Both the position numbers and the translations under genes were made by a program. From positions 3,658,001 to 3,722,000 of the forward strand of contig NZ_CP099489.1 of NCBI RefSeq assembly GCF_023923225.1: a stretch of DNA of 64,000 nt. Reading direction: 5' to 3'. The notes under the pieces were generated by a model that saw only the letters and a program-made list of their open reading frames with translations, was not told where the DNA came from and did not search any database. Position 1 is the stretch's first letter; every line of letters begins with the position of its first letter. The DNA comes from Ornithinimicrobium faecis. Lineage in GTDB: Bacteria; Actinomycetota; Actinomycetes; Actinomycetales; Dermatophilaceae. Of the stretch, positions 25,215-38,063 are shown in pieces.

Positions 25215-25283
25215 ACCGCACAGGGTATGCCGTGGTGCCGGTGTGTCGTGCACGCGCACCTCCCGACCGGTAGCGTCGGCCTC
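25215..25283. promoter_or_regulatory. Divergent glgP/glgE promoter region
   Basis: The 69-bp gap holds two leaderless-type promoters. On the minus strand TACCCT (plus-strand 25222-25227) lies 7 nt before glgP GTG. On the plus strand TAGCGT (25271-25276) lies 7 nt before glgE GTG 25284. Neither gene has a Shine-Dalgarno. The close back-to-back layout could link glucan breakdown and synthesis. Confidence 0.6.
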
Positions 25284-27344
25284 GTGAGCCAGACAACAGC
25301 CAACGGCAGCAACCAGTCCGTGCTCGCCCTCGTGGGCCAGACGCCCATCGGGCGGATCCCGGTGCAGAACGTCCGTCCGGCCGTCGACGGTGGCGCCCGA
25401 CCGACAAAATCTGTGGTCAACGAACTGTTCGCGATCACCGCCACCGTCTTCCGCGAGGGCCACGACAAGGTCAACGCGACGGTCGTGCTGACCGACCCCG
25501 ACGGCGTCGAGCACCACATCCGGATGCACCTGCTCAACCCCGGACTGGATCACTGGGGCACCACCGTCTTCGCCGACCGCGAGGGCATCTGGAGTTATCG
25601 CGTCGAGGGCTGGTCCGATCCCTATGCCACCTGGCACCACGACGCCACCATCAAGGTGGAGGCCGGGGTCGACGTGGAGCTGATGCTCGAGGAGGGCGCC
25701 CGCGTGATCGAGCGCGCCCGCGACGAGGTGGAGCGCTCCCCCGAGGACGGGCAGCTGCTCACCGAGGCGGCGGCAGAGCTGCGCGACACGGGTCGCCCCG
25801 TCGGGGAGCGCCTGGCCGCGGGCACTAACCTGCACGACCTGTTGACCCACGCGCCGCTGCGTGACCTGGTCAGCCCCAGCCGCGAGCACTCCTGGTGGGT
25901 GGAGCGCCAGCTGGCCCTGCACGGCGCCTGGTATGAGATCTTCCCCCGCTCCGAGGGGGCCACGCAGGACCCCGAGACGGGGCTGTGGACCAGCGGCACG
26001 TTCGCCACCGCCGCCGAGCGGCTCCCCGCGATCGCCGACATGGGCTTCGACGTCGTCTATCTCACCCCGATCCACCCCATCGGTCGCACCAACCGCAAGG
26101 GACGCAACAACACCCTGGACGCCCAGGAGCACGACCCGGGCAGCCCCTACGCGATCGGCGCGCAGGAGGGCGGCCACGACGCGCTCCACCCCGACCTGGG
26201 GGACTTCGACGACTTTGACGCCTTCGTGGCCCGCGCGCAGGAGCTCGGGCTCGAGGTGGCAATGGACCTGGCGCTGCAGGCCGCCCCCGACCACCCGTGG
26301 GCCACCGAGCACCCCGAGTTCTTCACCACCCGCGCCGACGGCACCATCGCCTATGCCGAGAACCCGCCGAAGAAATACCAGGACATCTATCCGGTCAACT
26401 TCGACAACGCCCCGCCGGCCGCCTATGCCGAGGTGCGACGCATCATGCAGGTCTGGATCGACCACGGCGTCAAGATCTTCCGCGTCGACAACCCGCACAC
26501 CAAGCCGGTTGAGTTCTGGCAGTGGCTGATTGCCGATGTCGCGGTCGATCACCCCGATGTCATCTGGCTGGCCGAGGCGTTCACCAAGCCGGCGATGATG
26601 CACACGCTGGCCAAGGTCGGTTTCCAGCAGTCCTACACCTACTACGCCTGGCGCAACCAGGCGGCCGAGCTCACGGAATACGTCACCGAGCTCGCGGGCC
26701 CCGCCGCGGCCTACATGCGGCCCTCGTTCTGGCCGACCACGCACGACATCCTCACGCCCTACATGCAATACGGCGGTCCGACCGCCTTCCAGGTGCGGGC
26801 TGCCCTGGCCGCGACGCTGGTGCCGACCTACGGCATCTACGCCGGCTATGAGCACTGCGAGAACGTCGCCCGCCCGGGGGCCGAGGAGCACATCGACAAC
26901 GAGAAATACGAGTTCAAGAACCGCCGGTGGGACCTCGACACCGAGCACGGCGGCCGCGACGAGGCCCACGGGCGGCCCAACCTGGCCCCGTTCCTGAAGC
27001 GGCTCAACGAGATCCGCCGGGAGCACCCCGCGCTGCACTGGATGCGCAACATCACCTTCCACAGCGCCGAGGACGAGAACATCCTGGTCTTCTCCAAGCG
27101 CGGGGGCGGTGCGCACGACGGGTCCGACTCCGACGAGATCATCGTGGTGGCCAACCTGGACCCGCACGCGGACCGCGCGACCACCGTGCACCTCAACATG
27201 CCCTCGATCGGACTCGGCTGGCACGAGCGCTTCGTGGCCCACGAGCTGCTCACCGACCAGCAGTGGCACTGGGGCGATGCCAACTTTGTCCAGCTCGGCC
27301 CGAGCGCTCTGCCGGTCCACATCATCTCGGTCAGGAAGTTCTGA
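25284..27344 (+). CDS. glgE: Alpha-1,4-glucan:maltose-1-phosphate maltosyltransferase GlgE
   Basis: Adds maltose from maltose-1-phosphate to growing alpha-glucan (GH13_3). The 686 residues comprise an N-terminal domain ([15 protein letters not shown]), an inserted helical bundle ([10 protein letters not shown] region) and a barrel with [29 protein letters not shown] (nucleophile Asp about 403), WLAEAFTKP (Glu about 428) and FWPTTHDIL (Asp about 485). The sequence [15 protein letters not shown] is typical of GlgE phosphate binding. The start is GTG 25284. The stop overlaps treS by one base (TGATG). First gene of glgE-treS-mak/glgB-pgm. Confidence 0.97.
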
Positions 27345-29050
27345 TGCAGGGCCTGAACCTCCAGCAGCCCGGGCTCAAATACGACCCGGACTGGTATCGC
27401 AAGGCCGTCTTCTACGAGGTGCTGGTCCGCGGCTTCGACGACTCGACCGGCTCGGGGTCGGGTGACTTCAGCGGCCTGATCAACCGGCTGGACTATCTGC
27501 AGTGGCTGGGCATCGACTGTCTCTGGATCCCCCCGTTCTATGCCTCACCCTTGCGCGACGGCGGCTACGACGTCGCCGACTACACGGCCGTCCTGCCCGA
27601 GTTCGGCACGCTGCCCGACTTTCAGGAGCTCATCTCCCAGGCGCACGCGCGCGGCATACGGATCATCACTGACCTGGTGATGAACCACACCTCCGACCAA
27701 CACGCCTGGTTCCAGTCCTCCCGATCGGACCCGGAGGGTCCCTACGGCGACTTCTATGTGTGGTCCGACACCGACGACAAGTATGCCGACGCCCGGATCA
27801 TCTTCGTCGACACCGAGGTCTCCAACTGGAGTTTCGACAGTGTGCGGCGCCAGTTCTACTGGCACCGGTTCTTCAGTCACCAACCGGACCTGAACTTTGA
27901 GAACGAGGCCGTCCAGGAGGCCATGTTCGAGGTGGTCCGGTTCTGGATGGACATGGGGATCGACGGCTTCCGGCTCGACGCGGTGCCCTATCTGTTTGAG
28001 GAGGAGGGCACCAACTGCGAGAACCTCCCTCGCACCCACGAGTTCCTGGCCCGGCTGCGCGCGATGGTCGATGACGAGTTCCCCGGCCGCGTGCTGCTTG
28101 CCGAGGCCAACCAGATGCCCGCCGAGGTGGTCGACTACTTCGGCACCCCGGAGGCGCCGGAGTGCCACATGTGCTTCCACTTCCCGGTGATGCCGCGCCT
28201 CTACTACGCGCTGCGCGAGGAGACGGCGGCCTCGATCATCCGGGTGATGGAGGAGACTCCGCCGATCCCGCAGGGCACGCAGTGGGGCACCTTCTTGCGC
28301 AACCACGACGAGTTGACGCTGGAGATGGTCTCGCCCGAGGAGCGCTCGGCGATGTATGGCTGGTATGCCCCCGACCCGCGGATGCGCGCCAACATCGGGA
28401 TCCGGCGTCGGCTGGCCCCACTCCTGGACAACTCCCGCGCCGAGATCGAGCTGATCAACGCGCTGCTGCTGAGCCTGCCCGGCAGCCCGTGCCTCTATTA
28501 CGGCGACGAGATCGGGATGGGCGACAACATCTGGCTGGCCGACCGGGACGCGGTGCGCACGCCGATGCAGTGGACCCCGGACCGCAACGCCGGCTTCTCC
28601 ACCGCCGACCCGGGCAAACTCTATCTGCCAGTGATCTCCAGCCTCGTCTATCACCACGCCGCGGTGAACGTGGAGGCGCAGATGGCCACGGGTTCCTCAC
28701 TGCTGCACTGGGTCCGGGGCATGCTGCAGATCCGCTCGCGCCACGAGGTCTTCGGGCTCGGTGAGTTCACCGTGTGCGAGGCGGACAACCCGGCCGTGCT
28801 GGCCTACACCCGCCTGATGACCGACCCCGAGGTGGAGATCGAGGGCCGCCCCGGCGTGCTCTGCGTCAACAACCTCTCGGGCCGCCCGCAGGCTGCCCGG
28901 ATCCAGTTGCCCGAGGGTCAGGAGGGCGCGGTGACCGTTGACCTGTTCGGTGGCACGGGCTTCCAGGACGTGGATGCGGACGGCTCGATCCACCTGGCCC
29001 TGGGCTCGCAGGACTTCTACTGGCTCGGCCTGACACCTCAAGGAGTCTGA
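27344..29050 (+). CDS. treS: Maltose alpha-D-glucosyltransferase / trehalose synthase TreS
   Basis: Interconverts maltose and trehalose; in the GlgE route it supplies maltose for maltokinase. The 568-residue GH13_16 protein starts [18 protein letters not shown] and has [23 protein letters not shown] (nucleophile Asp about 208), LLAEANQ (Glu about 252) and [12 protein letters not shown] (about 319). Length is that of a stand-alone TreS, without the C-terminal maltokinase domain seen in some fusions; here the kinase is fused to GlgB instead. ATG 27344 overlaps the glgE stop. Confidence 0.96.
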
Positions 29051-29051
29051 G

Positions 29052-32000
29052 ATGCCAACACTGACACCACCTTTCGCGCAGTTCCTGCCGGGATGGGTCG
29101 GCTCCCAACGCTGGTTCACCGGCAAGGGCCGCTCCCCCTCGCTGCGCCGGGTCGGCGGCTATCGGCTGGAGGACCCGGCCGGTGAGGTCGGCATCGAGGT
29201 CCATCTCGTGGCCGACGAGTCCGGGCCGAGTCCGGTGATCTATCACGTGCCGCTCACCTATCGGGGCGAGGCGGCGCCCGAGCTGCACACGGCGCTGGTC
29301 GCCACCGTCGAGCACAGTGAGCTGGGCACCCGGTGGATCTATGACGGCTGCCACGACCCGGTCTATGTCCAGGCGCTGGCCGACCTGATGCACTCCGGGG
29401 CGCACGTCTCCGGCAGCGACGAGGGCACCGACCTGACCGGCAGCGCCACCACGGCACGTGCTGCGGGGCCATGCCCGGTGGTGCGCCGCTCCGCCGTCCT
29501 GGTCGGTGAGCAGTCCAACACCTCGATCATCGTCGAGACGGGCGAGCCGGGTGAGTCCGCCCCGGTCATCATCAAGGTCTTCCGAGTCCTGCAGGCCGGG
29601 GAGAATCCCGACGTGTCCGTGCAGAGTGCCCTGGCCGAGGCGGGCAGCACCCTGGTGCCGCAGCCCGTCGGCTGGGTGACCGGCACCTGGCACGAGACCG
29701 ACGGATCGTCCGCGCAGGGCCACCTGGCCTTCGCCCAGGAGTTCCTGCCGGGCGTGCAGGACGCGTGGCGCACGGCGCTGGTCGCGGCCCGCGACGAGAC
29801 AGACTTCACCGACCGGGCCCGCGAGCTCGGCGTCGCCACCGCCCAGGTCCACGCGACGCTGCGCGAGGCGTTCGGCACGCAGGACCTGACGCCGCAGCGC
29901 CAGCAGGCGCTGCTCGAGGGCCTGCGCGACTGGCAGCGCCGTGCGGTGGAGGCCGCGCCCGAGCTCGCCGAGGACGAGGCCCGGATCACGGCAGCCCTTG
30001 CTGCTGCAGAGGACGCGCAGTGGCCTGCGCTGCAACGCATCCACGGTGATTATCACCTCGGTCAGGTGCTCGACGTCCCGGACCGCGGCTGGGTGCTGGT
30101 CGACTTTGAGGGCGAGCCGCTGCGCCCGCTGGAGGAGCGCTCGCTGCCCGACCTGGCACTGCGCGACGTGGCCGGCATGCTCCGCTCGTTCGACTACGCG
30201 GCCGGGTCGGTCGCCCAGGACGGCGACCTCGACCGGGCCGACTGGGCCCGGGCAGCCCGCGCTGCGTTCCTGGACGGTTATGCCAGCGAGTCCGGGACCG
30301 ACCTGGAGAGCTCTGCCTCGATCCTGGCCGCGCTCGAGCTGGGCAAGGCGCTCTATGAGGTGGTCTACGAGGCCAGCAACCGCCCGGCCTGGATCGGCAT
30401 CCCCGTCGCCGCCGTCCGCGCCCTCGTCACGCCCTCCCCCACCCCCGACCGAGCGCACGGTGTGGCGACATCCGACCCCCACCGAGCGCACGGTGTGGCG
30501 ACATCCGACCCCCACCGAGCGCACGGTGTGGCGACATCTGGCCCCACCGAGCGCGCCGCAGAGGACACACCGGCCCCACCGAGCGCGTGGTCGAGTGGTG
30601 AGCCCGAGCCGGTTGGCGACGCCGGGGGCGGATCGACCGTGCAAAACCTCCCTGAAAATACGGGAGAGGTGAGCGAAACCTCCCCCAAAATTGGGGAGAA
30701 ACCGCTCGCTGAGCGGGAGGTGGAGCTGCTGCTGCGCGGTCTGCACCGCGACCCACACTCCCTGCTGGGCGCGCACCCGCACGACGGCGGCATCACCATC
30801 CGCACCCTGCGCCCCCTGGCGGAGTCGGTGACGGTCCTGCTCGCTGAGGGCGAGCGCCACCCGATGCACCACGAGACCCACGGCATCTGGACGGCAGTGC
30901 TCCCGCGCACCGACATCCCCGACTATCGCCTCGAGGTGTCCTGGGGCGACGGGGTGGGCCACCAGCAGGACGACCCCTATCGTTTCCTGCCCACGCTGGG
31001 CGAGATGGATCGGCACCTGATCAGCGAGGGCCGCCACGAACAGTTGTGGAAGGTGCTCGGCGCCCACCTGCGCGCCTATGACGGGCCGATGGGCCAGGTG
31101 CGCGGCACGAGTTTCGCCGTCTGGGCCCCCAACGCCCGCGGGGTGCACGTGGTCGGCGACTTCAACCAGTGGGACAACACGGCCCACCCGATGCGCGTGC
31201 TCGGCGACAGCGGGATCTGGGAGATCTTCGTGCCCGGCGTCTGGCAGGACAACCGATACAAGTTCGACATCACCGGCCCCGACGGCCACCGCCGGCTCAA
31301 GGCCGACCCGATGGCCCGGGCCGCAGAGGTGCCACCGAGCTCGGCCTCGATCGTCACCCACGCCTGGCACGAGTGGGGCGACCAGGAGTGGATGGATCGG
31401 CGCGCCACGACCGACCCGCACACCGGGCCGATGAGCATCTATGAGGTGCACCTCGGCTCCTGGCGTCAGGGCGCGTCCTACCGCGACCTGGCCGAGCAGC
31501 TGACCAACTACGTCACACAGATGGGCTTCAGCCACGTCGAGTTGATGCCGGTGATGCAGCACCCCTACGGCCCGTCCTGGGGTTACCACGTCACCGGTTA
31601 CTACGCCGCCGACTCCCGGCTCGGCTCCCCCGACGACCTGCGCTATCTGATCGACCGGCTCCACCAGGCGGGCATCGGCGTGATCCTGGACTGGGTGCCG
31701 GGCCACTTCGCCACCGACCCGTGGGCGCTGGCCCGGTTCGACGGCACCCCGATCTATGAGCACCCGGACCCGCGCCGCGGCTGGCAGAACGACTGGGGCT
31801 CCTACATCTTCGACTTCGGTCGCCCCCAGGTGCGCAACTTCCTCGTGGCCAACGCCCTGTTCTGGATGGAGGAGTTCCACGCCGACGGCCTGCGGGTGGA
31901 CGGGGTGGCCTCGATGCTCTACCTCGACTACTCCCGCAACGACGGCGAGTGGCTGCCCAACAAGCACGGCGGGCGGGAGAACCTCGAGGCGGTGGCGCTG

Positions 32001-33029
32001 CTGCAGGAGACCAACGCCACGGCCTACCGCCGCAACCCGGGCGTGGTCATCATCGCCGAGGAGTCCACCTCCTGGCCCGGCGTGACGCGCTCCACGAGCA
32101 GCGGTGGGCTCGGCTTTGGCTTCAAGTGGAACATGGGCTGGATGCACGACTCGCTGGACTACATCAAGCGCCAGCCGATCCACCGTCAGTATCACCACCA
32201 CCAGATGACCTTCTCGCTGATGTATGCGTTCTCCGAGCAGTTCGTGCTGCCCATCAGCCACGACGAGGTGGTGCACGGCAAGGGCTCCCTGCTGCGCAAG
32301 ATGGGCGGCAGTGACCGGTGGCAGATGATGGCCAGTCTGCGTGCCTATCTGGCGTTCATGTGGGCCCACCCCGGCAAGCAACTGCTCTTCATGGGCCAGG
32401 AGTTCGCGCAGATCGCGGAGTGGGCGGACGGTCGTGGACTGGACTGGTGGCTGCTCGACCAGCCAGCTCACGTGGGTGTCCAGCACCTGGTGCGCGACCT
32501 CAACCTGACCTACCGGGACACGCCAGCCCTGTGGCAGCTGGACCACAAGGGCTCGGGCTTCCAGTGGCTGGACGCCGACGACTCCCGCGGCAACACCTTC
32601 TCCTTCGTGCGCTATGGCACCGAGGACGCGGACGGCGAGCGCCCGGTGCTGGTGGCCGCGGCCAACTTCTCCGGGTCACCGCGGACGGTCCGTCTCGGCG
32701 TCCCGCGGGCCGGTCGCTGGCACGAGGTCGTCAACACCGACGCCGACCACTACGGCGGCTCTGGCGTGGGCAACATGGGGTCGGTGACGGCCTCCGACCA
32801 GCCGCACCAGGGGCAACCGCACTCACTGACCCTGACGCTGCCACCCCTTGGCGTGCTCTGGCTCGTGCCCGCCGCGCCTGAGCCAACTGAGGCAGCCGAG
32901 GCAACTGAGGCAGCCGAGGCCCGACCCACCCAAGCCGTGACCGAGGCGAGCTCACCGGAGCAGCCAGCTGACGGCATACCGAAGCAGTCCCCCGACCCCG
33001 ACACCCCGACGCCCACCACCACGGAGTAG
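29052..33029 (+). CDS. Maltokinase - GlgB branching enzyme fusion
   Basis: One unbroken 1325-residue frame. Residues 1-455 are maltokinase (Mak/Pep2; ATP + maltose to maltose-1-phosphate): [28 protein letters not shown] (about 330) and [13 protein letters not shown]. Residues about 551-1275 are GlgB (EC 2.4.1.18): [10 protein letters not shown], a CBM48 module ([20 protein letters not shown]), [16 protein letters not shown] (Asp about 946), IIAEEST (Glu about 1001) and [10 protein letters not shown] (about 1069). Residues about 458-550 are a linker encoded by both repeat families of this window. A Pro/Thr/Ala-rich tail ends the protein. An in-frame GTG at 30669 could start a separate GlgB but has a badly spaced ribosome site. 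It lies 1 nt after treS, with pgm following. Confidence 0.93.
30450..30593 (+). repeat. Family B repeat array B1 inside the mak-glgB linker (5 units)
   Basis: CGAGCGC-centred units start at 30450, 30483, 30516, 30548 and 30580. The first three are near identical (CACCGAGCGCACGG then TGTGGCGACAT) and 33 bp apart, so they encode an 11-residue peptide repeat containing RAHGVATSD. The last two steps are 32 bp, the spacing seen for this family outside genes. Confidence 0.9.
30640..30696 (+). repeat. Family A repeat array A5 inside the mak-glgB linker (2 units)
   Basis: Units at 30640-30664 (TGCAAAACCT, core CCCTGAAAAT, ACGGG) and 30672-30696 (AGCGAAACCT, core CCCCCAAAAT, TGGGG). Start-to-start distance is exactly 32 bp, as in the non-coding arrays, although here both are translated ([17 protein letters not shown]). 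Confidence 0.88.
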
Positions 33030-33031
33030 CC

Positions 33032-34684
33032 ATGGCCATCCACGAGCGCGCCGGGCAGCCCGCCCAGCCCGAGGACCTGACCGACATCGACGCGCTGCTG
33101 GCTGCCTACGCGCAGATCGTCCCCGACCCGGACAACATCGACCAGCAGGTCGCGTTCGGCACGTCCGGGCACCGCGGCAGCTCGCTGGACGGCGCCTTCA
33201 ACGAGCATCACATCCTGGCCACCACCCAGGCGATCTGTGAGTATCGCCTGGAGCAGGGCATCGAGGGCCCGCTGTTCATCGGCAAGGACACCCATGCCCT
33301 GTCGCTGCCCGCCTGGCACAGCGCGCTGGAGGTGCTGGTCGGCAACGGCGTCGACGTGTGGATCGACCGCGGTGGCGCCGAGGCCTACACGCCGACCCCA
33401 GCGGTGTCCCGGGCCATCCTGGCGCACAACCGTGAGGTGGAGGGCGCGACCGGCACGGCCGACGGCATCGTGGTGACGCCCTCGCACAACCCGCCGCGCG
33501 ACGGCGGCTTCAAATACAACCCGCCCCACGGCGGACCGGCCGACACGGACGCGACGGGGTGGATCGCCGACCGGGCCAACGAGTTGCTGCGCGCGGGGCT
33601 GGAGGGCGTGCGGCGCGTGCCGCTTGACCAGGCCCTCGAGGCGGCCGAAACCTATGACTTCATGGGCGAGTATGTCCGTGCGCTGCCACGAGTCATCAAC
33701 CTCGACGCCATCCGGGAGGCCGGCGTGCGCATCGGTGCCGACCCGCTCGGTGGCGCCTCAGTGGACTATTGGCAGGCGATCGCGGACGAGCACCGCCTGG
33801 ACCTGACGGTGGTCAACCCTAGGGTGGATCCGGCGTGGGCCTTCATGACCCTGGACTGGGACGGCAAGATCCGGATGGACTGCTCCTCGCCCCACGCGAT
33901 GGCCTCGCTGATCGACGCCAAGGACGACTTCGACATCTCCACCGGCAACGACGCCGACTCCGACCGGCACGGCATCGTCACCCCGGACGGTGGGCTGATG
34001 AACCCCAACCACTACCTGGCCGTCGCCATCGACTATCTGTATGGCGGGGGTCGCCCGGACTGGCCCGATGGGGTTGCGATCGGCAAGACCCTGGTCTCCT
34101 CGTCGATGATCGACCGGGTCGCCGAGGACCAGGGCCGGGAGCTGATCGAGGTCCCGGTCGGCTTCAAGTGGTTCGTCCCGGGCCTGATCGAGGGCACGAT
34201 CGGCTTCGGGGGTGAGGAGTCGGCCGGCGCCTCGTTCCTGTGCCGGGACGGCTCGGTGTGGTCCACGGACAAGGACGGCATCATCCTGGCGCTGCTGGCC
34301 GCGGAGATCCAGGCAGTCACCGCCAAGTCCCCCTCCCAGCGCTATGCCGAGCTGGTCGCCGAGCACGGTGACCCCGCCTATGCGCGCATTGACGCCCCGG
34401 CCAACCGCGAGCAGAAGGCCAAGCTCAAGGCGCTCAGCCCCGCGGACGTCACCGCCACGTCACTGGCCGGCGAGGAGATCACCGCGACCCTCACCGAGGC
34501 GCCCGGCAACGGTGCGGCGATCGGCGGCCTGAAGGTGCAGACCGCGAGCGCCTGGTTCGCCGCCCGCCCGTCCGGCACGGAGGACGTCTACAAGATCTAT
34601 GCCGAGTCTTTCCAGGGCCCCGATCACCTGGCTCAGGTGCAGCAGGAGGCGCAGGCGCTGGTGGATGGTGCCCTGGGCGGATAG
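33032..34684 (+). CDS. pgm: Phosphoglucomutase (alpha-D-glucose phosphate-specific)
   Basis: Interconverts glucose-1-phosphate and glucose-6-phosphate, joining glycogen to central metabolism. The 550-residue protein has the catalytic phosphoserine loop [11 protein letters not shown] (about 150), the metal loop DADSDRHG (about 305), the sugar loop [10 protein letters not shown] and the phosphate loop [12 protein letters not shown] near the C-terminus. [10 protein letters not shown] near residue 45 is typical of this subfamily. It follows mak-glgB by 2 nt, so it is the last gene of the operon, ended by the hairpin at 34736. Confidence 0.96.
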
Positions 34685-36820: not shown

Positions 36821-38063
36821 AGCTGCCGTTCGCGCCGACGACCTGCTCGCGGGCGGCGATGACCTCAGGGTCGCCACCGTCGGCACGCACGTGCACGGCC
36901 AGGAAGACCAGGGTGGTCATCTCGGCGCTGTCGGTGATCGTGTCGTCCTCGGCGAAGTGCGCAAACGCTGACGACGGCTCCAGGATCATGCCGTCCAGCA
37001 CGTCAAAGGTGCTCTTGCGCTCCAGGACCGGGAACATGATGGCTGAGCCATCGGCCAGCTCGATCGTGCGCAGGGTGCCGGACCGCAGTGAGTGATCCTG
37101 GGTCAGCGTGGCCTGCTCGGCGACGCTGGCCGCCTGCTCCTCCGCGGCCGCACGGACCTGCGGGCCGTAGTTGTTGGTGCGGAAGTCCGGGCGCTCGTCG
37201 GCAAACGGATAGTCCAGGATCTGGAAGAGCATGTCCACGACATAGCTCGGGTAGTTAGTCAGGCCCGCCTTGCCGTCACGGATCACGGTCGACCCCTCCG
37301 AGCGGGGGTCGAAGGTGCCGATCTCGGTGCCGGCAAGCATGGGGGCGCTCCAACCGATCTTCCAGTCGCCCCCGTCCTCCTCCTGCACCATCAGGTGCAA
37401 CTCGGGCAGGCCCGACTCCGGCACGGACTGCACGACCATGTAGGCCGGGAACTCACCGTCCTCGCGGCTGATGGCCAGGACATTGGGACTCGTCGGGTGA
37501 TAGTCGATGACCGGGGTGATCCCGATGTCACGCAAGGAGGTGGCAGCCACGGCGGCACGCAGCTCCGAGCCGGAGAAGGCCGACTCGTTGAGCTCGGCTG
37601 CCTCCTCGGCATCAGCGTTCTGGGAGTCGGCGGCCTCGCGCATCAGCTGGCTGGCGATCTCCTCGCCCTCCTCGACGGAGAGGACACCCGCGCCGGCAGC
37701 AGGGGCGGTGATCACTGCGTCGTCGGTCTCAGAGTCCTCACCCGGCGCGGCCGTGCTGTCGCCGGCGTCACCGGTGGATCCAGCGGCGTCACCGGTCGAC
37801 TCGCTCGCGTCGCCAGTGGACTCTGCCGCATCGCCCGTGGACCCTGCGGCATCACCGGTCGACTCACCCGCGTCTCCCGTGGACTCGCCAGCATCGCCCG
37901 TGGACTCACCGGCGTCACCGGTCGTGTCAGCGGCGTCGGGGCTGGCGTCAGCGGCCGTCGAGGAGGTGTCGGTGCTCTCCTCGGGCTCGTCCGAGCCGCT
38001 GCAGGCAGCGAGCAGCAACGAGGAACTGAGGGCAAGGGCAAGCGCAGTGCGGGGCAACTTCAT
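36819..38063 (-). CDS. Lipoprotein with heptad STGDAGE repeats, unknown function
   Basis: A 414-residue predicted lipoprotein: signal peptide MKLPRTALALALSSSLLLAAC, lipidated Cys at about residue 21. Residues about 45-105 contain eight imperfect 7-residue repeats of the STGDAGE/STGDAAG type, encoded by 21-bp tandem repeats (about 37760-37925), making an acidic stalk. The folded C-terminal domain (about 290 residues, LRDIGITPVIDYHPTSPNVL onward) is unfamiliar to me and probably extracellular. TACCAT lies 6 nt before ATG 38063, so it is leaderless. Repeat number may vary between strains. Confidence 0.82.
   Translation of the reverse strand: MKLPRTALALALSSSLLLAACSGSDEPEESTDTSSTAADASPDAADTTGDAGESTGDAGESTGDAGESTGDAAGSTGDAAESTGDASESTGDAAGSTGDAGDSTAAPGEDSETDDAVITAPAAGAGVLSVEEGEEIASQLMREAADSQNADAEEAAELNESAFSGSELRAAVAATSLRDIGITPVIDYHPTSPNVLAISREDGEFPAYMVVQSVPESGLPELHLMVQEEDGGDWKIGWSAPMLAGTEIGTFDPRSEGSTVIRDGKAGLTNYPSYVVDMLFQILDYPFADERPDFRTNNYGPQVRAAAEEQAASVAEQATLTQDHSLRSGTLRTIELADGSAIMFPVLERKSTFDVLDGMILEPSSAFAHFAEDDTITDSAEMTTLVFLAVHVRADGGDPEVIAAREQVVGANGS

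Follow-up and report, generated by a model that had tools for sequence, protein, structure and literature searches.

How the maltokinase (Mak) and GlgB parts of one protein came to be joined through repeated DNA is the question raised by a single reading frame of the window, by which we mean the whole 64,000-nucleotide stretch of DNA that was analyzed. The frame runs from 29052 to 33029 without an internal stop and encodes 1325 residues, with units of two repeat families, A and B, in its middle part. The reading that we favor, with a probability of roughly 0.85, is an old Mak-GlgB fusion with a fast-changing linker, which was colonized long afterwards by two clade-specific dispersed 32-bp repeat families. 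The features of the locus are as follows.

25248 to 27344, plus strand: glgE, upstream (Pfam GlgE_dom_N_S and GLGE_C; borders from our own gene caller)
27344 to 29050, plus strand: treS, ending 1 nt before the fusion frame (TIGR02456 above cut-off; borders from our own gene caller)
29052 to 33029, plus strand: fused maltokinase-GlgB frame, 1325 aa (open frame, domain matches)
29052 to 30425, plus strand: maltokinase part, Mak_N_cap and kinase, residues about 1 to 458 (Pfam, PDB comparison, NCBIfam)
30426 to 30707, plus strand: in-frame linker of 94 residues (open frame between maltokinase and GlgB)
30444 to 30476, plus strand: B unit 1, 33 bp (repeat comparison, B pattern match)
30477 to 30509, plus strand: B unit 2, 33 bp (repeat comparison, B pattern match)
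30510 to 30541, plus strand: B unit 3 (repeat comparison, B pattern match)
30542 to 30573, plus strand: B unit 4, degenerate (83% over 18 nt)
30574 to 30605, plus strand: B unit 5, degenerate (89% over 18 nt)
30641 to 30672, plus strand: A unit 1, 32 bp, unit borders arbitrary (A pattern match)
30673 to 30704, plus strand: A unit 2, 32 bp, unit borders arbitrary (A pattern match)
30711 to 33026, plus strand: GlgB part, with GlgB_N from residue 554, CBM48, GH13 and the C-terminal domain, then a tail (Pfam, PDB comparison, NCBIfam)
33032 to 34684, plus strand: pgm, starting 2 nt past the fusion frame (TIGR01132 above cut-off)

The genes glgE, treS, mak-glgB and pgm lie on one strand with almost no gaps and are probably co-transcribed. 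The enzyme set of the GlgE pathway (glgE, treS, mak, glgB) is complete at the locus, which places it in this pathway. Mak would make maltose 1-phosphate, and GlgB would branch the glucan built by GlgE. The closest database match to the fusion protein, among the best 120 of 6868 listed, is an Ornithinimicrobium faecis protein that is 98% identical, in line with placing the genome in the Ornithinimicrobium group. It is encoded on a separate 86,791-base contig and has the same linker with two copies of an 11-residue B peptide instead of the three in the window, and with three extra residues, the frame being kept. Thus, the open frame is real and not an accident of assembly, and the conservation of the frame suggests that the full fusion is translated. 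Still longer Mak-GlgB-Pgm fusions of about 2000 residues were seen in some relatives (e.g. Ornithinimicrobium cerasi and Serinicoccus; P0046, P0055, P0059, P0080, P0104), the domain make-up having been checked with Pfam for P0046.

The original prediction had described the linker as five B units followed by two A units, all read in frame. Three exact B units and two A units were recovered. B units 1 to 3 are spaced by 33 and 33 bp and their core is identical at 24 of 24 bases; as predicted, this spacing keeps the frame and encodes an 11-residue repeat. The claim is weaker for B units 4 and 5 (30542 and 30574, spacing 32), which are degenerate and were missed by the B pattern. Between the B and the A units lie 35 other bases. 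The A units start at 30641 and 30673, a spacing of 32. Over 26 positions they carry 6 and 7 differences from the commonest A unit of the genome, with 0 mismatches to the degenerate A pattern of the clade. The chance expectation in the window was 0.00 for either pattern (dinucleotide shuffling, 100 rounds per pattern).

Both families are dispersed over the genome, with 63 matches for A and 56 for B at up to 3 mismatches and none for the reversed-pattern control. Their unit period is 31-33 bp; units per array were counted in the fetched stretches with a loose pattern, and some single units may be chance matches. Among the 31 genomes of the genus, A is concentrated in seven and B in six of those seven. 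The degenerate A pattern matched 77 times in this genome (G000), 103 in G005, 75 in G006, 126 in G023, 82 in G025 and 15 each in G002 and G016, once in G026 and not at all in the other 23; with the reversed control, G025 and G026 each had a single match and every other genome had zero. B pattern matches numbered 56 in this genome, 53 in G023, 12 in G016, 5 in G025, 4 in G005, 3 in G002 and none in G006, with a single match in each of four further genomes of the genus. Some A arrays form inverted pairs, e.g. 408885/409474, 1927083/1927944, 2214488/2215174, 2707582/2708350 and, in the window, 47770/48556, and the genes between them differ. That A units are the flanks of a mobile gene cassette was considered and rejected: inverted pairs do lie 300-800 bp apart, but the longest reading frames between six pairs appeared unrelated by eye. 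Read in the sense direction, eight non-coding B arrays start 4-18 bp past a stop codon and a ninth overlaps its stop, as judged from crude gene calls. A 63-bp/21-bp tandem repeat within a long reading frame at 37759-37938 of the window is unlike A and B.

The A and B units could be DNA or RNA elements, either 3'-end signals or binding sites for a protein with a phase of about three helical turns, and their translation in the linker would then be a tolerated by-product. The common period of the two families, the variation of the units by species, the position of several B arrays a few bases past stop codons and the orientation of A units outside genes, where by crude gene calls the downstream gene faces the unit in 68 of 87 cases, all agree with such a role. 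On the other side, Rfam gave no match at E 1 or below in 30000-31200 and no inverted repeat was reported in 30380-30760, and we know of no protein that binds A or B units. We consider this role unlikely; it is compatible with late colonization of an old fusion.

Outside this linker, the units had been taken as non-coding. This did not hold, as in-frame arrays were found by reading inside 14 other genes, e.g. those for TreZ, NuoB, DapA, transporters and RsmH. Counting both arrays of the linker, 11 B and 5 A arrays lie in genes; coding status was assigned by our own codon-score gene caller and by reading, which was not blind. Relatives lacking the insert were compared for TreZ and NuoB, and the other in-frame arrays were recognized by reading. 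In TreZ of this genome, one complete and one partial B unit sit in a loop of CBM48 in the same frame as in the linker. A like insert occurs at the same place in G016 and G002 and a different one in G025, while G005, G006, G023, G009, G021 and G014 have none. The C-terminal tail of NuoB holds 13 in-frame B units of 33 bp, which encode an 11-residue repeat (stretch L151, 850-1500). B cores in the NuoB tails of relatives number three in G016 and in G023, two in G005, one in G025 and zero in G002, G006, G009 and G021. The copy number in O. faecis NuoB was not found among the best 120 of 3045 listed protein matches.

By reading, B units also form C-terminal tails in DapA, one ABC ATPase and one DUF4233 protein. 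They further make up the joint in a double ABC ATPase, occupy a loop in an NrfD-like protein and extend three ABC ATPases at the N terminus, each of these extensions depending on the start codon used. Two of the extended proteins, both in stretch L132, are putative ABC ATPases. Their adjoining frames appear by eye to open with B arrays of opposite orientation (sense in one, antisense in the other), each at 33-bp spacing. A units were read in the middle of an MFS protein, within the membrane portion of a molybdopterin-domain protein and in two tails, that of RsmH and that of an FAD-binding dehydrogenase subunit. The frames used differ: linker and TreZ share one, NuoB uses another and DapA reads the opposite strand. 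By this reading, the linker is not a special case: 14 other genes likewise carry A or B units in frame, in their tails, loops or domain joints.

The spacing of the units was compared with their coding status. There are 30 multi-unit B arrays, of which 582268 (ambiguous), 1317587 (spacing 50) and 3712768 (spacing 64) were left out, giving 10 coding and 17 non-coding arrays; seven single B matches had flanks too short to classify, and the two degenerate B units of the linker (32 bp apart) stand outside the count. Units mostly 33 bp apart were found in 7/10 coding arrays and in 2/17 non-coding arrays (Fisher p = 0.0036). Counted by interval, 33 bp was seen in 25/30 coding against 6/34 non-coding cases. 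When the three N-terminal extensions were removed, the ratio was 5/7 against 2/17 (p = 0.009), and when they were recoded as non-coding it was 5/7 against 4/20 (p = 0.023). The 33-bp spacing is nevertheless ruled out as proof of coding, because of the two non-coding arrays that have it. A arrays are mostly spaced by 32 or 31 bp, also inside genes.

Two known kinds of repeat invite comparison. Rickettsia palindromic elements (RPE) encode a conserved peptide in one frame, and MIRU-type and other variable tandem repeats of mycobacteria are short, lie near gene boundaries and vary in copy number between strains. By this description, A and B would resemble the MIRU type as short tandem units near gene boundaries with variable copy number. 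One review describes RPE as dispersed repeats that occur between genes and in frame in many unrelated protein genes, where they encode short peptides, with a length of about 150 bp and a palindromic structure by name (PMC10969869). Like RPE, A and B are inserted in frame in unrelated protein genes, as seen for TreZ and NuoB against relatives lacking the insert and elsewhere by reading. In contrast to RPE, their units measure 31-33 bp, are often in tandem and are not palindromic, and they are translated in more than one frame and from either strand instead of as one conserved peptide. By this analogy, A and B would best be read as dispersed short repeats that become translated filler, RPE-like without being RPE. 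More tentatively, and with rather less than even confidence, a genome-wide system in one small actinobacterial clade may bring mobile 32-bp repeats into genes and fix them there at a coding period of 33 bp, or 11 residues. A single supply of repeats would thereby lengthen core metabolic proteins (Mak-GlgB, TreZ, NuoB, DapA, ABC ATPases, transporters) in their linkers, tails and loops and vary these between strains.

The comparison of mak-glgB junctions in related genomes, which had been proposed as a check, was carried out. Among the 31 genomes of the genus, 27 junctions were readable (those of G024, G008, G022 and G023 were not read across) and at 26 of these a single open frame crosses the junction, the linker measuring 29-308 residues. 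The exception is G015, in which the junction is out of frame and GlgB itself is frameshifted too. All 14 rows of the sister clade are fused in one frame, and in the family sample outside the genus 28 of 62 readable genomes are fused and 34 have separate genes. The survey found no mak in the locus of G008, G022, G023 and G036, and G024, G061, G063, G066 and G093 were excluded. In a FastTree tree of 104 Mak+GlgB rows, where the rows L039 and G048 are identical, the genus (27 rows) adjoins the 14-row all-fused clade, and the label fused or separate changes at least 8 times with G015 scored as separate. A Mak cap and a GlgB N-terminal domain are both present in all of the best 120 of 6868 listed matches.

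This kind of fusion is already known, as NCBIfam holds a Mak+GlgB equivalog model, NF011293 (PRK14705, 1224 aa). The model has the same domain order as the window protein, Mak then GlgB in one reading frame, with its positions 4-468 on Mak and 505-1223 on GlgB. The window protein differs in that its linker holds repeats and in that it scores 1395.3 bits, below the curated cut-off of 2376, which was passed by 2/69 sampled genomes of the order. In the same sample, 16/69 genomes have one match that begins no later than model position 15 and reaches at least position 1221, three of these with one TGA inside the match. Two papers describe TreS-Mak (TreS-Pep2) fusions, in which enzymes of the GlgE pathway are joined (PMC11046441, PMC4306142), and TreS-Mak fusions are also the subject in PMC2885305, PMC6520443 and PMC6509496. 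Here, in contrast, Mak is joined to GlgB, and treS is a separate gene upstream. A literature search judged by title returned no paper on a Mak-GlgB fusion or on such repeats.

GlgB might also, or mainly, be made separately from a start inside or just past the linker. A Shine-Dalgarno-like stretch with ATG or GTG lies in the linker of many fused relatives (e.g. G033, G055, G057, G070, G088, G003, G019, L036) by a loose test (4 nt, run without a shuffled control), and G005 and G025 have an ATG at GlgB position 8 with GAGGTG 9 nt upstream. If losing the mak stop codon is what produced the fusion, start signals of this kind are to be expected. The same test, applied in this genome to the linker and the 20 codons that follow, gives no in-frame start, and by reading the GTG codons that remain (30669 and 30720) have purines too close; five other fused rows (G021, G034, G048, G053, L039) have none either. 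Separate production of GlgB is therefore less likely here, and we regard it as quite unlikely.

The arrival of the repeats was followed in the 56 fused linkers. Six of them, from this genome, G005, G016, G006, G025 and G002, which form one clade, have A matches (up to 3 mismatches), and B matches (up to 5 mismatches) occur in two, with three in this genome and one in G005, the sister species. As a control, shuffling of the six subclade linkers gave an A match in 0-6 of 200 shuffles per linker. Two forward A units stand right before GlgB in five of the six, and G002 has one at the threshold used; reverse A units are also present, one in G016 and two in G002. Since the fusion is common to the genus and its sister clade and the arrays are found in few linkers, the fusion predates the arrays. 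A linker built from repeats might be adaptive, e.g. by tuning the distance between active sites or by binding glucan; the repeat is indeed kept in frame between nearly identical proteins, but fused linkers range from 16 to 308 residues over the 56 rows with very different sequences, the shortest (16-17 residues in G053, G033 and G048) having neither A nor B, and such a role seems very unlikely to us. The original prediction, that intergenic arrays replaced the mak stop and the glgB start and thereby made the bifunctional enzyme, drew on the presence of both families in the linker and between genes, but it is highly improbable, as 50/56 fused linkers lack an A match and 54/56 a B match, the fusion is genus- and sister-clade-wide, an NCBIfam model for it exists and the tree contradicts it unless the array-less fused relatives each lost their arrays.

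Colonization of an old fusion would have proceeded in four steps, whose order is suggested by the distribution on one gene tree. The fusion would have been in place before the genus. An A pair would then have entered beside GlgB in the ancestor of the six species, a B unit in the line of the window species and its sister species, and in the window species B would have been copied in tandem to three units with a 33-bp period. Copies probably multiply by slippage or unequal recombination, and selection would remove changes that break the frame. The repeat peptide is likely a flexible hydrophilic tether without a specific role. The repeats made the joint longer; they did not give rise to the fusion.

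The joint is old, and dispersed repeats came to fill it at a later time; this linker is a datable example of repeats turning into protein. This corrects an attractive but wrong story of how a bifunctional enzyme originated. With 0, 1, 2, 3 and 13 copies, close species and nearly identical proteins offer a natural series of intergenic-type repeats becoming protein, which makes testable both the recruitment of repeats into coding sequence and how selection for frame may reshape their period. The contigs of G023, G008 and G022 end at or near the mak-glgB junction, and glgB of G023 starts at a contig edge, perhaps due to repeats. In 17 genomes of the genus (e.g. G003, G010, G020), the linkers are 221-308 residues long, and short motifs recur in them (ASGGxPHAPVPPP and ASGWSG, for instance), which are perhaps binding sites in a disordered tether.
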